The notes: a model not told the origin generated them from the sequence alone. DNA of 64,000 nucleotides from Halobacteriovoraceae bacterium (GCA_002711995.1 PASN01000008.1:62001-126000); one strand, 5' to 3'; counted from the first letter of the stretch, positions 34,004-39,235 are shown. A program made the numbers and translations.

Positions 34004-34198
34004 ATTATTCCTAAGTTTAAGATCACCTCTTATGATTTTAAGACCTTCTCCTCCCTTCAGACAAGAATTTAAAAAAGCATCAAAAAATCATCTAACCGTA
34101 TAAACCTTAAGCGCTATTAAGAAATCTTAAAAAGATTACACACACTCATTGATGTGCGCAGCAACATAGGCAAGAATCCATTTACCAGGAGATACATT

Positions 34199-35329
34199 AT
34201 GCTAAACAGCCTTCTAGAAAGGGAATTCGGAGTTTCGACATTTGGTTTGGAATACAATAATAATTTGAATATTGAGCAATTAAATTCATTAGACTCACTT
34301 TCGCATATCCAGCTAACATTCCCGTGCCTGACAAGCTGGTTACCTTTAGAGAGCCTTTCGGCCTCTAAGGAAATCCACCTACACTCCCAAGGACTCATGA
34401 GTGGAAATAATTTAAACTACGTTTTAAAACAATTTGAATTCTTTAAGAGTCTCTCAAAGTCCAATCTTACATTAATTGAGCACTTTCAGCCTGAGAGAGG
34501 CTTCGGTAGCTCTAATAAAGAAGACCTGAAAGTATTAAAAGAACATACTCAAAAGCTTTTCATTGAGAACCTTCCAATAACTGAAGAGGCTGAAGAGTAT
34601 CTTGAGGAACTCATAAATTTTTCAAAAACGTATTCAATCCCTATCGCATTAGATTTACCTCACTTAATAATTTCAGCAAAAGCTGCAAATAAAGGTTTGA
34701 ATTGGGTGCACTCTAGAATTAAGGCCATGGATATAAAAGTGCTACACGTTGCGGGACTCTCCCTGAAAGGGAAGACCATTGGGGACTCACATAAGGATTT
34801 GAACTTATCTTATTTGAACAGCTTCAGATACCTAATCGATAAACACCCTATCACAATTGAAAGCAATTCAAGCTATAACCTCAATGCAATTTGTAAAGCT
34901 ATAAAGAGTGACGACCAAATAAACCTAGACCATTTATACAATGCTCAAGACTTCGCAACCTTAATAGATAATCTAAAAAAAGAATCAGACAAAATATTTT
35001 CTGGAACTTCGAAACTAAAGTCCCCCATAGAAAGTAAGTGCACAGGTTTATTTTGTGAAATAAACCAAATTTATCCTTTCACAAATAATATATGCAAAAT
35101 TGAAAAATCTATTCTGAATGACAAGAAGATTCTGTTTAGAACAATTGGACGTAACTTGAGACTTATCAAGAATAGCTTTCTTACTCTTACAGACAGCCTA
35201 CACTTCGAAGTTTCAGTAACAAAAAAAACAGCCATATTGGAACACCAAAAAAAAGACAGAGAAATTTTGGGAACTTGGACCTTAAATTTAACAAATAAAA
35301 CTCAACTAAACATTTTAGCTTTAAACTAG
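34199..35329 (+). CDS. Divergent DUF692/MNIO-type (multinuclear iron oxidase) enzyme, putative RiPP maturase
   Basis: I place the start at ATG 34199 (AGGAG seven bases upstream), giving 376 residues. The first 240 residues look like the DUF692 TIM barrel, with the metal-ligand order kept: His60/His62 (HLHSQG), His95 (LIEHFQPERG), Glu123-Asn124 (LFIENLPIT), and Asp152 with His155 where family members have Asn (IALDLPHLIISA). His183 (VLHVAG), Asp196-x-His198 (GDSHKDLN) and Glu221 (HPITIESNSS) follow. MNIO enzymes use two or three irons and O2 to modify ribosomal peptides. The last 110 residues, with three Cys (ESKCTGLFCEI, NNICK), may stand in for the usual separate partner protein. A short peptide gene follows after 9 bases. 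Substrate chemistry is unknown. Confidence 0.72.
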   Translation: MLNSLLEREFGVSTFGLEYNNNLNIEQLNSLDSLSHIQLTFPCLTSWLPLESLSASKEIHLHSQGLMSGNNLNYVLKQFEFFKSLSKSNLTLIEHFQPERGFGSSNKEDLKVLKEHTQKLFIENLPITEEAEEYLEELINFSKTYSIPIALDLPHLIISAKAANKGLNWVHSRIKAMDIKVLHVAGLSLKGKTIGDSHKDLNLSYLNSFRYLIDKHPITIESNSSYNLNAICKAIKSDDQINLDHLYNAQDFATLIDNLKKESDKIFSGTSKLKSPIESKCTGLFCEINQIYPFTNNICKIEKSILNDKKILFRTIGRNLRLIKNSFLTLTDSLHFEVSVTKKTAILEHQKKDREILGTWTLNLTNKTQLNILALN

Positions 35330-35338
35330 GAGAAACAA

Positions 35339-35452
35339 ATGAAAGAAGAGGATCAGAACCAATTAGACTTAGAGATTGATGCCAATTTGGAGGAATTCTT
35401 AGAGGAACTTGAAAAAGAGCTAGAGGCTACTGGCGGGAGTCCGGGGCTATGA
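35339..35452 (+). CDS. 37-residue acidic peptide, candidate RiPP precursor
   Basis: This short frame has AGGAG six bases before ATG 35339, overlapping the stop of the MNIO-like gene. Its TGA overlaps the ATG of the transporter gene (ATGA). The product is very acidic and helical (NLEEFLEELEKELEA, residues 16-30), then switches abruptly to a Gly/Pro-containing tail, TGGSPGL, at the C-terminus. That is the leader-plus-core shape of a RiPP precursor. There is no Cys or C-terminal Asp, the usual MNIO targets. It does not quite match a double-glycine leader, because the E-L pair is one residue off. The precursor role is inferred from position and shape. Confidence 0.72.
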   Translation: MKEEDQNQLDLEIDANLEEFLEELEKELEATGGSPGL

Positions 35453-37959
35453 ATAACCTTCAAAAAGCTTTTCTATTTACATCATGTGTCTCCGCCTTTG
35501 GAGATGCACTTCTCTACCTAGCACTACCCGTAGGTCTCGGTCTCACCACAGGGAAAGTTGAAGATGCAATCACTCTCTTCTTGATCCCGGCAATTTTTAT
35601 GTTTGCTTCGAGTTATGTGAGTGAAAGGTTTGTACGACCAAAGCGTTTAAACCTAGACTATGGCTACGTTCTAATTTCTCTAGCTTTGATTGAGTTAATT
35701 ATCTCAGTGCTTTGTATTCTTGCTGAGGGAATAACTGAAAAAAAGTACTTAATGTACCTCTTCGTAGCCATATATTCTTTTGGTAAGGAGGGTCTACCTA
35801 AGATCTATTATAATTTTGAGGTTTATAAATTCTTTTTCTCAGAAGATCACTACAGCAAAGTTGTGGCCAAAACAAAATCACTAGTGATTCTAGGGGGGTT
35901 ACTTGGGATGTGCTCCTCTGCTGTTCTTATAGAACTTCGGTTGTGGGAATATTCTTTATTAGTAGACTCGTTTACATTTTTAGCTTTAGGCTTGATTATT
36001 CTGAGAGGTTCATTACCTAAAGAACAAGAAAAAAGTGAAGAGTCAGAATTAAACGGAGTTAATAATCTATCAACTGAACATAAATATATTAACTTTATTG
36101 TTCCATTCTATATTTTTATCAGCTCTCTCTTCTGGCCATTTCTCCCGTTAATAAACCAAAGGCTGGGAGTCGCTTCAATAAGTCATTCAATATTATTATT
36201 GGCAGCTTTCAAGCTACCAGGAATTATTGCGGGTTTCAAATTTGAGTATTTAAAGGAGAAGCTAGGGATGCTTAAGCTCCTCTACATTACTCCTTGGTTA
36301 GCATTATTCGCAACTCTGACTTATATGCTTTCACCCAGCTTGATCTCATACTTAGTTGTTATCTTAACTTTTTCTTTAGTAGAGTCTGTGTATTGGCCAG
36401 CTGATTACTCAGTGAGGGATCAACTCAACACATCTTTAAAAATAAAATTCAACAAACTAAATCTTAGACTATTTGCCCTTTTCCAGGGACTTGGCTGCCT
36501 AATTGGATATGCAATATTCCATTTTGGAAACTTTCAAACCAATATGCTATATGTGTTTTACATTTCCTTTACTTTTGCACTCCTTTATCTAGGGATAACT
36601 AGGATAAAATTTCTAAGCCTATTATTGGTATCAATTCTATCGGCATGTAATCCTGCATCTACTATTAATATAGTTGTACCAAACATTAATGATGAGATAA
36701 GGCTGTCAAACACTCTAACTTACTCTGAAACTATAATCACTAATGTTACTTCAGCTCACCTACTCAGAATTGATAAAAAGCTTAACCTTGCTAAGGAGGT
36801 CCTGGGAAGTGTTGAAAAGGTTTCTAGCTCTAAATTCATTTTAAATCTAAACGAGGACTATAGAACATTTCGAGGAGAGGAAATTAACGCTTCCGATGTG
36901 GTCGCAACGTTCAAGTATTATATTCAAAACCTTCCAGATACCATGAGGGTATTAAATAGTATAAAAGGTTCTGTTGAGTGTAATAAGAAGAACTGCAAAA
37001 ACTTTGGAGTTAAAAAAATTGGAAAATTTAAAGTACAAGTTGAACTTAAAGAGCCAAACCCCAACTTTTTAAATGATCTAATTTCACCTGTATTTGTGAT
37101 TATTAAAGAAGGAAAGCCTCTTTACGAGAAGGTTGGCGAATGTACCCTTCCCTATCAGACAGGTAGAGGCCATGTAAGCAAGTGCACCAAAAAATTTATC
37201 GAGATCACGCACCATGGTAAGAAATATAAGTTATCAAAGGAATCATCAAAGAATGGCTTTACGATAACACCGGTCGGAAAAGGCAACTCAAATGTGCCTT
37301 CATTAACTTCTATGTTTTTTATTAAAAATCCCACTGCTAACGCGCAGGTATCAACATTTATGAGGGCTCTTAGCTCTGATAGAGAAGCTCTTGCGAATCA
37401 CCTCAAGGTTGCACCGTCAAAAACATTAACTTCATCATGGCTAGGTTTTGACACCACGATTTTAAAAGATAAGCAGAACACAATTGAGGTCCCGGCACAG
37501 AGTCTGAATATTGTAATAGCTAAAAGTATTCCAGAGCATCAAAAAGTAACTTCATACCTTGAAAGTAGATACCCACAAATAGACTTTAAGTTTAACATTG
37601 TTCCGTCACAAAACTTCTTTCAAGAGGCCTCAAAAGCGGACTTGAGTCTACTATGGCTTACTCCTGGGTATTTTGATTTCTATGACTTAATTTCCATCTT
37701 TGATTGCGACCCCAATAGACTGTGTTGGTACAATTTTGAGGATATTGAGCTACAAAAACAAATTAGAACATTAAGACGTCCTGAGAACCGTTATACAGAT
37801 CAAGCAACACTTCTTAAAGTTGAAAAACTCCTACAGGAGAAGGGTTATTTAGCTCCCATAGGACTTCTGAACTGGTGGCTTAAAAGAGGTGACAAATTCA
37901 TTTCCACCCACCCAGCTGGCCTCTTTATGATTGATATTACTGAGCTTGACTATGACTAA
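35449..37959 (+). CDS. MFS transporter fused to a family 5 (OppA-like) solute-binding domain
   Basis: 836 residues. Residues 1-390 form twelve hydrophobic helices of an MFS-type transporter (FGDALLYLALPVGLGL at the start). A thirteenth hydrophobic segment reads FLSLLLVSILSAC and looks exactly like a lipoprotein signal ending at a lipobox Cys400. The remaining 436 residues resemble peptide-binding SBP_bac_5 proteins: RTFRGEEINASDVVATFKYY near residue 475, YQTGRG, and a C-lobe ending PIGLLNWWLKRG. If the MFS part has its N-terminus inside, the binding domain is periplasmic. Signal peptidase II could even release it as a lipoprotein. With a candidate peptide gene upstream, export plus capture or sensing of the peptide is suggested. 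Confidence 0.75.
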   Translation: MNNLQKAFLFTSCVSAFGDALLYLALPVGLGLTTGKVEDAITLFLIPAIFMFASSYVSERFVRPKRLNLDYGYVLISLALIELIISVLCILAEGITEKKYLMYLFVAIYSFGKEGLPKIYYNFEVYKFFFSEDHYSKVVAKTKSLVILGGLLGMCSSAVLIELRLWEYSLLVDSFTFLALGLIILRGSLPKEQEKSEESELNGVNNLSTEHKYINFIVPFYIFISSLFWPFLPLINQRLGVASISHSILLLAAFKLPGIIAGFKFEYLKEKLGMLKLLYITPWLALFATLTYMLSPSLISYLVVILTFSLVESVYWPADYSVRDQLNTSLKIKFNKLNLRLFALFQGLGCLIGYAIFHFGNFQTNMLYVFYISFTFALLYLGITRIKFLSLLLVSILSACNPASTINIVVPNINDEIRLSNTLTYSETIITNVTSAHLLRIDKKLNLAKEVLGSVEKVSSSKFILNLNEDYRTFRGEEINASDVVATFKYYIQNLPDTMRVLNSIKGSVECNKKNCKNFGVKKIGKFKVQVELKEPNPNFLNDLISPVFVIIKEGKPLYEKVGECTLPYQTGRGHVSKCTKKFIEITHHGKKYKLSKESSKNGFTITPVGKGNSNVPSLTSMFFIKNPTANAQVSTFMRALSSDREALANHLKVAPSKTLTSSWLGFDTTILKDKQNTIEVPAQSLNIVIAKSIPEHQKVTSYLESRYPQIDFKFNIVPSQNFFQEASKADLSLLWLTPGYFDFYDLISIFDCDPNRLCWYNFEDIELQKQIRTLRRPENRYTDQATLLKVEKLLQEKGYLAPIGLLNWWLKRGDKFISTHPAGLFMIDITELDYD

Positions 37960-39235
37960 GCTGATTAGTGAACTAGAAAGAATTGAGAAGTATCATCTAA
38001 AGCTAGCGTTTCCTATCCTATGCTTTTGCATATTGTGCTTCTCAATTTACTCTACACTAAAAGAGGATCAAAAAGTAAGAGAGGAAACTCACCAATCTTT
38101 ATCGATTCTACTAGAGCCGTTGTTAATATCCGGAGATTTAATTTCAATTTACAGAACTATTCATTCTTTTGAAGCAACTGTTGAAAATTTAAACGTGTGT
38201 CTTAAAGACCATGATGGGGTTCTCTTGTATGGTCAGTCTTGTAAAAGCGATGCTAAAAGGCTTGATTTTAAATTCTTTGAGGGTGCATATTACTTAGGAA
38301 TTGGCACTAAACCGCTAAAAGGAGTTTTTCCACAAATCATATTTATCCTTCTTACAATGGTAATAATAATTTTAGCTTGGAAGAGAATTAGGTTCTTGAT
38401 CGAAACCTTAAAAAATGATTTGGCCAACGTTAGTCTGTTAAATGAAGACAACATAATCTCTAGCGAATTTCTCAGACTCAACCAGAGGGTTCGTGAAAAT
38501 CAAGATTTGAAGGAGAAACTCATTAATACAGAAAAAGAGCGTAAACACGCCAATGAGTTGAGAAAGATCGCACATGATTTACGCTCCCCAGTCTCAGTCC
38601 TTGAGTATCTTGTAGAAGAGGCCAAGATGAGTTCCGAAAAGAAGGATTTAATGAAAAATGCTTCGAGCAGCATTATGAGTATTTGCTCGACTCTTTTAAC
38701 AAAAAGTAGGCAGCGATCGAGCATTTTCTACCCAGACCTGCTAAATAACGTTGTTAGGTCTAAGTTGATTGAGCACAGAGACTACGACCTTAAACTCCTA
38801 ACAACAGCAATGCCCGAAGTCTCTTTGGAGGACAAGATTGCATCCAACCTAGAGCGAATACTATCTAATATAGTAAATAATTCAGTGGAGGCCAGAAAGT
38901 CTACAGTTTCTCCAGTGGTTACCATAGGCACGACTGTCACTAGTCAATATTTTGAAATATCTATTTCTGACAATGGGAAAGGTCTATCCAAAGCGGCCCA
39001 GACTAAAGTTTTCTCTCCAAACTTCACAACTAAAAAGGATGGAAATGGAATTGGTTTATACGAAGCTAGAGATTATCTACATTCAATTGGTGGAGATATT
39101 CAAATTGACTCTACAGATAAAGGTGTACAAGTCTCCATCTCCCTGCCCGTAAGTTTCATTAGTTTAGAGAAACCTTGCTCTGAATTTCAAAATTATTCTT
39201 ATAACTCTCAACACAGAGTCGAAGTCCTTCATTGA
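37952..39235 (+). CDS. Membrane sensor histidine kinase
   Basis: 427 residues from ATG 37952, which overlaps the transporter stop by 8 bases; a TTG 21 bases earlier is an alternative. Layout: TM1 (LAFPILCFCILCFSIY), a small periplasmic sensor (about 37-122) with two Cys (VCLKDHD, GQSCKS), TM2 (QIIFILLTMVIIILAW), and a linker. The H-box IAHDLRSPVSVL carries His208, and the HATPase follows with ERILSNIVNNSVEA (N-box), ISDNGKGLS (G1) and GNGIGLYEARDYL (G2). It has no receiver or DNA-binding domain. Its 3' end overlaps the convergent epimerase by 77 bases. The nearest receiver is the stand-alone protein at 40167-40481. Confidence 0.9.
   Translation: MTKLISELERIEKYHLKLAFPILCFCILCFSIYSTLKEDQKVREETHQSLSILLEPLLISGDLISIYRTIHSFEATVENLNVCLKDHDGVLLYGQSCKSDAKRLDFKFFEGAYYLGIGTKPLKGVFPQIIFILLTMVIIILAWKRIRFLIETLKNDLANVSLLNEDNIISSEFLRLNQRVRENQDLKEKLINTEKERKHANELRKIAHDLRSPVSVLEYLVEEAKMSSEKKDLMKNASSSIMSICSTLLTKSRQRSSIFYPDLLNNVVRSKLIEHRDYDLKLLTTAMPEVSLEDKIASNLERILSNIVNNSVEARKSTVSPVVTIGTTVTSQYFEISISDNGKGLSKAAQTKVFSPNFTTKKDGNGIGLYEARDYLHSIGGDIQIDSTDKGVQVSISLPVSFISLEKPCSEFQNYSYNSQHRVEVLH

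Follow-up and report, generated by a model that had tools for sequence, protein, structure and literature searches.

A candidate modified-peptide signalling cassette with a divergent MNIO enzyme in a Bdellovibrio-like bacterium

What does an operon do that joins an MNIO (DUF692) enzyme, a peptide of 37 residues, a transporter fused to a substrate-binding domain and a sensor kinase? The question is raised by a locus in the 3.7 Mb genome of a Bdellovibrio-like bacterium, from a predatory lineage of the phylum Bdellovibrionota; the window is the whole stretch of 64,000 nucleotides that was analysed. An initial annotation had described the four genes as packed without gaps, and the checked reading frames bear this out. 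All four lie on the plus strand (34199-35329, 35339-35452, 35449-37959 and 37952-39235); 9 bases separate the enzyme from the peptide gene, the peptide gene overlaps the MFS gene by an ATGA, and the fusion gene overlaps the kinase gene by 8 bases. Because of this last overlap the MFS-SBP and kinase genes are probably co-translated. The operon is flanked by an inositol-monophosphatase-like gene and a sugar epimerase gene, both oriented the opposite way, and is therefore a unit by itself; counts of sigma-70 promoters and terminators in the region do not exceed the chance expectation. The packing is more than a chance arrangement, since both the gene order and the short ORF at the same place recur in a second genome, G288. 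The features of the locus are as follows.

34187-34192, plus strand: AGGAGA ribosome-binding site of the MNIO gene, read from the sequence.
34199-35329, plus strand: divergent MNIO (DUF692) enzyme, 376 aa, with the barrel at about residues 10-230 (profiles, ligand alignment, structure of the homologue).
34886-35326, plus strand: C-terminal extension of the MNIO enzyme (about residues 230-376), missing from canonical DUF692; candidate built-in partner or leader-binding part.
35328-35333, plus strand: AGGAGA ribosome-binding site of the peptide gene, read from the sequence.
35339-35452, plus strand: acidic 37-aa candidate precursor peptide without Cys, MKEEDQNQLDLEIDANLEEFLEELEKELEATGGSPGL (position, counterpart in G288, profile match).
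35429-35449, plus strand: C-terminal tail TGGSPGL, candidate core (loose likeness to the G288 tail NTGSGI and to the Gly/Ser tails of DUF4135 precursors).
35449-36603, plus strand: MFS transporter domain of the fusion (PF07690, 9.4e-9; 33% to the separate MFS protein of G288).
36604-36648, plus strand: extra hydrophobic segment RIKFLSLLLVSILSAC, lipoprotein-signal-like (hydropathy, sequence).
36646-37956, plus strand: OppA-like domain of the fusion, SBP family 5 (PF00496, 5.3e-5, below the cut-off; 27% identity to the separate SBP of G288).
37952-39235, plus strand: sensor histidine kinase, 427 aa from the ATG (two transmembrane segments, periplasmic sensor, HisKA, HATPase).

The second cassette was located by searching the 369 genomes of the phylum, the set used for the cassette searches, with the fusion protein. 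On one strand, G288 encodes a 424-aa homologue of the MNIO enzyme, a 24-aa ORF (MNIKNLKKAAQKGSQKIGNTGSGI) preceded by AGGAGG, separate MFS and SBP5 proteins, and a histidine kinase. These two MNIO cassettes are the only ones known, and searches of viral contigs, plasmids and 84,980 species genomes yielded no MNIO or MFS relatives past three known MFS relatives. In G286 (L036:1-1600, minus strand), a 25-aa acidic ORF (MSTLDINCILEESGDEILGHNPMQY) with a ribosome-binding site directly precedes a related MFS gene at the end of a contig, with no MNIO gene visible.

The first gene had been described as a divergent MNIO enzyme, and divergent it is: by itself the protein falls below every family threshold. 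Searches of Pfam and NCBIfam give sub-threshold MNIO signals, with 12.5 bits to PF05114 (cut-off 25) and an E-value of 0.05 to the ApyH model, its only NCBIfam match, and sequence searches of the PDB reach MbnB only at an E-value of about 1. The G288 enzyme, which it matches in BLASTP at 1e-11, passes PF05114 (MbnB_TglH_ChrH) with 51.8 bits (8.8e-14) and has weaker matches to the NCBIfam models for BufB, ApyH, HvfB and MbnB. A profile made from the two enzymes matches DUF692 in profile-profile comparison (97.4%, E 9e-12), and its best non-self matches across the 369 genomes are canonical DUF692 proteins, down to an E-value of 5e-10. By way of the G288 homologue, sequence comparison thus places the window enzyme in the DUF692/MNIO family, and the binding of two or three iron ions and peptide oxidation are predicted from this membership. 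A weak PF05114 score upstream of the window (G000:C5:57433-57885, L032) belongs to a xylose-isomerase-like protein in a sugar cluster; we rejected it as a second MNIO cassette.

The proposed ligand order, H..H..E..D/H..H..DxH..E, is present in the window enzyme as H62, H95, E123, D152..H155, H183, D196.H198 and E221. In an alignment of the window enzyme, the G288 enzyme and nine canonical members, all of these except H155 are invariant in 11 of 11 proteins, which accounts for eight of the nine ligand positions. The ninth, the site-3 Asn, is replaced by His in both cassette enzymes; in the window enzyme this is His155, the kind of residue that endonuclease IV has at its third metal site. Together with the sub-threshold scores of the window protein, this residue could indicate a xylose-isomerase-like or endonuclease-IV-like barrel without MNIO chemistry. 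However, the G288 homologue passes PF05114, canonical DUF692 proteins are the best profile matches, and in structural comparison MbnB and TglH rank above other barrels by about 4 to 5 Z units; we therefore consider a barrel of this other kind very improbable. The site-3 Asn corresponds to N175 of HvfB, and the role of the third metal site in MNIO enzymes is openly debated (PMC13419390).

The structural comparison used the model of the G288 enzyme, whose barrel has pLDDT values of mostly 70-90 and whose underlying alignment contained two DUF692 rows. Ranks 1-9 of a Foldseek search with this model are all MNIO proteins; Z is 22.3 for MbnB (3.2 A over 243 residues), 20.6 for TglH, 17.6 for a DUF692 structure and 16.7 for the next entries, other barrels of unrelated fold. 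Because the window enzyme's own predicted structure is poor (pLDDT 46.9), we infer its fold from the homologue; it is predicted to be a TIM barrel most like MbnB and TglH.

The enzyme had also been said to lack a partner protein. This holds for a separate gene, but both enzymes carry a C-terminal extension, 100-180 residues long across the two and longer in the G288 homologue, that could serve as a built-in partner. The extension is missing from canonical DUF692 proteins of 280-300 aa, and it has neither a Pfam match nor a confident model (low pLDDT). A partner-free MNIO enzyme with an added winged-helix domain, MovX, likewise exceeds the canonical 260-300 aa, lacks a partner gene and has a non-Cys substrate (PMC12452194). 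Unlike MovX, the window and G288 enzymes have no detectable winged-helix domain in their extensions, and no Asn is found near the C-terminus of the window peptide.

If the enzyme modifies a peptide, the one encoded right behind it is a candidate substrate. The acidic peptide of 37 residues ending in TGGSPGL is present as had been claimed, and a small frame between the MNIO and MFS genes is found in G288 as well. Neither peptide contains Cys, and no signal peptide was found in the window peptide. The tails are conserved only loosely: ATGGSPGL in the window and GNTGSGI in G288 share a TG, an S, a G and an aliphatic end (shuffle p about 0.01). We also searched about 7,300 short ORFs with a profile of 16 precursors linked to the DUF4135 enzymes described below, leaving out the window peptide. 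At 8.6 bits, a low score, the window peptide comes first among the non-training ORFs (the next non-precursor has 6.0 bits); true members score from 1.9 to 29.9 bits when left out, and 12 of 5,000 shuffled sequences score as well as the window peptide.

An alternative explanation is that the enzyme has a substrate other than the short ORF. It would then act on another protein, such as the SBP or the kinase, or on a precursor encoded elsewhere, and the MFS-SBP-kinase part would sense and import outside peptides. The G288 peptide, which is basic, fails to match the precursor profile (rank 808), the similarity between the two tails is weak, and full proteins can be MNIO substrates (PMC12452194). 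However, both MNIO cassettes have a short ORF at the same place, preceded by a good ribosome-binding site, a short ORF also stands just 5' of the enzyme in the DUF4135 cassettes, and no ORF outside the training set fits the profile of their precursors better than the window peptide. We consider this alternative unlikely. The case for the peptide is good as regards its position and fair as regards its sequence, and the 37-residue peptide is the probable substrate of the enzyme.

The core had been described as containing neither Cys nor Asp, and indeed the peptide is free of Cys and its tail of Asp. As for the aminopyruvatide enzyme ApyH, modification would take place near the C-terminus of a peptide without a Cys target; ApyH differs in having a partner protein and a P450, and in targeting a C-terminal Asp. 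The precursors of the bufferin/oxazolin type are Cys-rich, carry a Sec signal peptide and have a DUF2063 partner, whereas the window peptide is acidic and has none of the first two features; no DUF2063 gene was found in the operon or its neighbours. A large survey of MNIO enzymes searched chiefly for precursors that contain Cys and precede the enzyme, and in its main text histidine kinases, MFS proteins, substrate-binding proteins and Bdellovibrio go unmentioned (PMC12452194). The window peptide, in contrast to the focus of this survey, is Cys-free and lies behind the enzyme.

The third gene encodes a protein of 836 aa in which, as the initial annotation had it, an MFS protein is fused to an OppA-like domain (MFS_1 at 9e-9; SBP_bac_5 at 5e-5, below the cut-off). 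Its SBP half has three Cys pairs in common with the G288 SBP. These conserved pairs and the lipoprotein-signal-like segment fit a periplasmic location, and the hydrophobic segment, judged by hydropathy and sequence, would position the SBP half on the periplasmic side. MFS-SBP fusions also occur in G005, G180, G209, G317, G257 and G067; in G288 the two are separate genes. An SBP fused to an MFS protein could equally serve uptake, and export is the direction that we consider in the following. The fourth gene is the expected sensor kinase, with a clear HATPase_c match (6.5e-16), a weak HisKA match, the H-box HDLRSP and two transmembrane segments. Its periplasmic sensor is short, about 90 residues, with two Cys in common with the G288 kinase. 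We found no receiver domain in the window kinase, no response regulator next to the window or the G288 kinase, and neither an outer-membrane exit gene nor a dedicated protease in the window operon.

The most likely function of the window locus is, in our view, the sensing of a modified peptide by the cell that makes it. The MNIO enzyme would oxidatively modify the C-terminal part of the 37-residue peptide, and the product, probably trimmed, would leave the cytoplasm through the MFS domain. In the periplasm the membrane-tethered OppA-like domain would capture the product and present it to the sensor kinase, much in the way that LuxP acts for LuxQ; the kinase would then report how much of the product is present to a response regulator encoded elsewhere. 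In LuxP-LuxQ and similar systems a periplasmic binding protein likewise presents the signal to a histidine kinase; however, the LuxP-LuxQ signal is a sugar-like small molecule and not a ribosomal peptide, and the binding protein found here is of the oligopeptide family and is in some cases joined to an MFS protein.

The locus had been interpreted as encoding a modified peptide signal or metallophore with its own exporter, binder and sensor, adding export, capture and sensing to the known MNIO clusters. Export and capture are already present in methanobactin systems, where the exporter MbnM and the OppA-like MbnE accompany the MNIO enzyme (PMC7558416); the coupling to a kinase is new. The methanobactin genes (MbnA, MbnB, MbnC, MbnM, MbnT and MbnE) share with the window an MNIO enzyme, a short peptide, an inner-membrane exporter and an OppA-like binding protein, and this union argues for a methanobactin-like metallophore, which would bind a metal outside and be recaptured by the OppA-like domain, as by MbnE, with the kinase reporting metal status. 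However, the candidate precursor lacks Cys, the operon and its neighbours (30.2 to 45.8 kb) contain no gene for an MbnC-like protein or a TonB-dependent receptor, and the same module serves DUF4135, YcaO and methyltransferase enzymes. The window locus also differs from methanobactin systems in that its exporter is of the MFS and not the MATE type and is fused to the binding domain, and in that a sensor kinase is part of the operon. While the proposed exporter, binder and sensor are supported as a reading, nothing that we found favours a metallophore over a signal, and we regard a metallophore as quite unlikely.

The reading of the locus as a system that exports, captures and senses a modified peptide gains independent support from the recurrence of the SBP5-kinase module beside other RiPP-type enzymes that have their own short precursors. 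In the phylum such modules, often with an MFS protein and a sigma-54 regulator, are found next to tandem SAM methyltransferases (G209, G026 and G317), a short DUF4135 enzyme (G005 and G259), and a YcaO enzyme (G034, 2.4e-9); further SBP5-kinase loci contain an alpha/beta hydrolase. No precursor-like motif was found in the methyltransferase loci.

DUF4135, the kinase/dehydratase domain of LanM lanthipeptide synthetases, is present in 20 genomes of the phylum. Among the 20 DUF4135 loci inspected, some of which are close relatives (G211/G213 and G259/G261), an SBP5 gene is found in 19 and a kinase gene in 17 (the contig ends first in two more), as judged by profiles that mark family membership and not orthology; an MFS gene or fusion is present in eight and a sigma-54 response regulator in nine. 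With no more than five SBP5 genes in the 3.7 Mb of the home genome, an SBP5 gene would be a chance neighbour in one or two percent of cases. The proteins keep the KPR, D[LI]HxxN and DxE residues in nearly all instances. Their precursors, 22-31 residues long and conserved, are encoded just upstream of the enzyme and have ribosome-binding sites (e.g., METVFIDLEALEIEAESYEAGASSGG, MTEVILINLDELETAAEAMGTGVSSQ and MENVISVNLEAIEAEAELFEGGTSSY); their leader is acidic, of the form [I/V][D/N]L[E/D]x[L/I]E, and is followed by a short Ser/Thr/Gly tail, and some have longer, signal-peptide-like N-termini. Class II lanthipeptide systems also combine a DUF4135 kinase/dehydratase domain with a precursor and a sensor kinase, but the enzymes of the parallel cassettes have only 333-396 aa, lack the cyclase domain, and are constantly accompanied by the SBP5 protein. 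Earlier mining of DUF4135 kept only sequences of 500 aa or more (PMC10676384), so this length filter would leave out the enzymes described here.

Several further observations concern these parallel loci. The DUF4135 cassettes (L119-L138, L088 and L089) are a second version of the cassette and, within the phylum, the commoner one; in G005 the DUF4135 gene is split over two frames (L089:10929-11971), through a frameshift or sequencing error or as a pseudogene. A leader-binding domain shared between the MNIO extension and the DUF4135 C-termini was considered and rejected, as the two have no similarity. In eight loci (L141, L143, L145, L147, L148, L149, L151 and L155) genes for an alpha/beta hydrolase and a small membrane protein stand behind the SBP5-kinase genes, and in L147 the membrane protein resembles isoprenylcysteine methyltransferase; most loci of this type have a sigma-54 regulator and some a small secreted protein. 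In L153:5315-8005 the SBP5 gene stands beside a YcaO gene and a kinase gene, and a secreted, Cys-containing protein of 127 aa encoded upstream may be the precursor. The place of this YcaO enzyme, between SBP5 and kinase, is taken in L152:11074-11982 and L154:6482-7348 by enzymes of about 290-300 aa. A radical SAM protein and an ABC exporter near a methyltransferase-type cassette (L085:2420-5297) possibly represent a separate RiPP cluster.

In a phylogeny of 41 SBPs, a quick tree with some long branches, the proteins fall into a single group with full support for each of the MNIO, methyltransferase and hydrolase cassette types, and into two groups for the DUF4135 cassettes. The enzyme labels need 8 changes on this tree against 22.7 on shuffled labels (0 of 200 shuffles were as low). 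Such grouping by enzyme class is expected if the SBP recognises the product of the enzyme; co-inheritance of whole cassettes would also predict it.

The parallel cassettes also bear on the possibility that the locus makes an antimicrobial RiPP with self-immunity or autoinduction, in which the MFS protein would export the antibiotic, the SBP sequester it and the kinase induce immunity or production. Nisin-type lantibiotics are sensed by their own kinases, and the LanM-type and YcaO-type enzymes of the parallel cassettes are classical makers of antibiotics. However, the precursors are very short with small and weakly varied tails, protease, ABC exporter and immunity genes are absent, and each cassette has one precursor and a dedicated binding protein. 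An antimicrobial thus has a low probability in our assessment. We consider it slightly more probable than not that the window locus is a self-contained modified-peptide signalling cassette and a member of a modular family. In this family the SBP5-kinase part, often with an MFS protein and often with a sigma-54 regulator, would be kept constant and the peptide-modifying enzyme exchanged.

We found no RiPP-type or peptide autoinducer system for Bdellovibrio-like bacteria, and no such cassettes, in the open-access literature that we searched. The reuse of the catch-and-sense part with different enzymes suggests an undescribed family of modified-peptide signals. For enzymology, the cassettes bring to light short DUF4135 enzymes, a class missed by the length filters of earlier mining, and would extend the MNIO enzymes to short Cys-free peptides, with no partner gene and an altered third metal site; they would also supply sets of enzyme, short precursor and receptor that are ready for testing. 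For the Bdellovibrionota we tentatively propose, at somewhat less than an even chance, a modular form of cell-cell signalling through ribosomal peptides modified by enzymes, in which one receiver module is combined with interchangeable enzymes (MNIO, DUF4135, YcaO, methyltransferase and perhaps hydrolase), each giving a private chemical signal; the window would hold the MNIO version, with the Asn-to-His change at site 3 and a Cys-free substrate. If true, such a conserved receiver module with exchangeable peptide-modifying enzymes would represent a signalling logic of a new kind.
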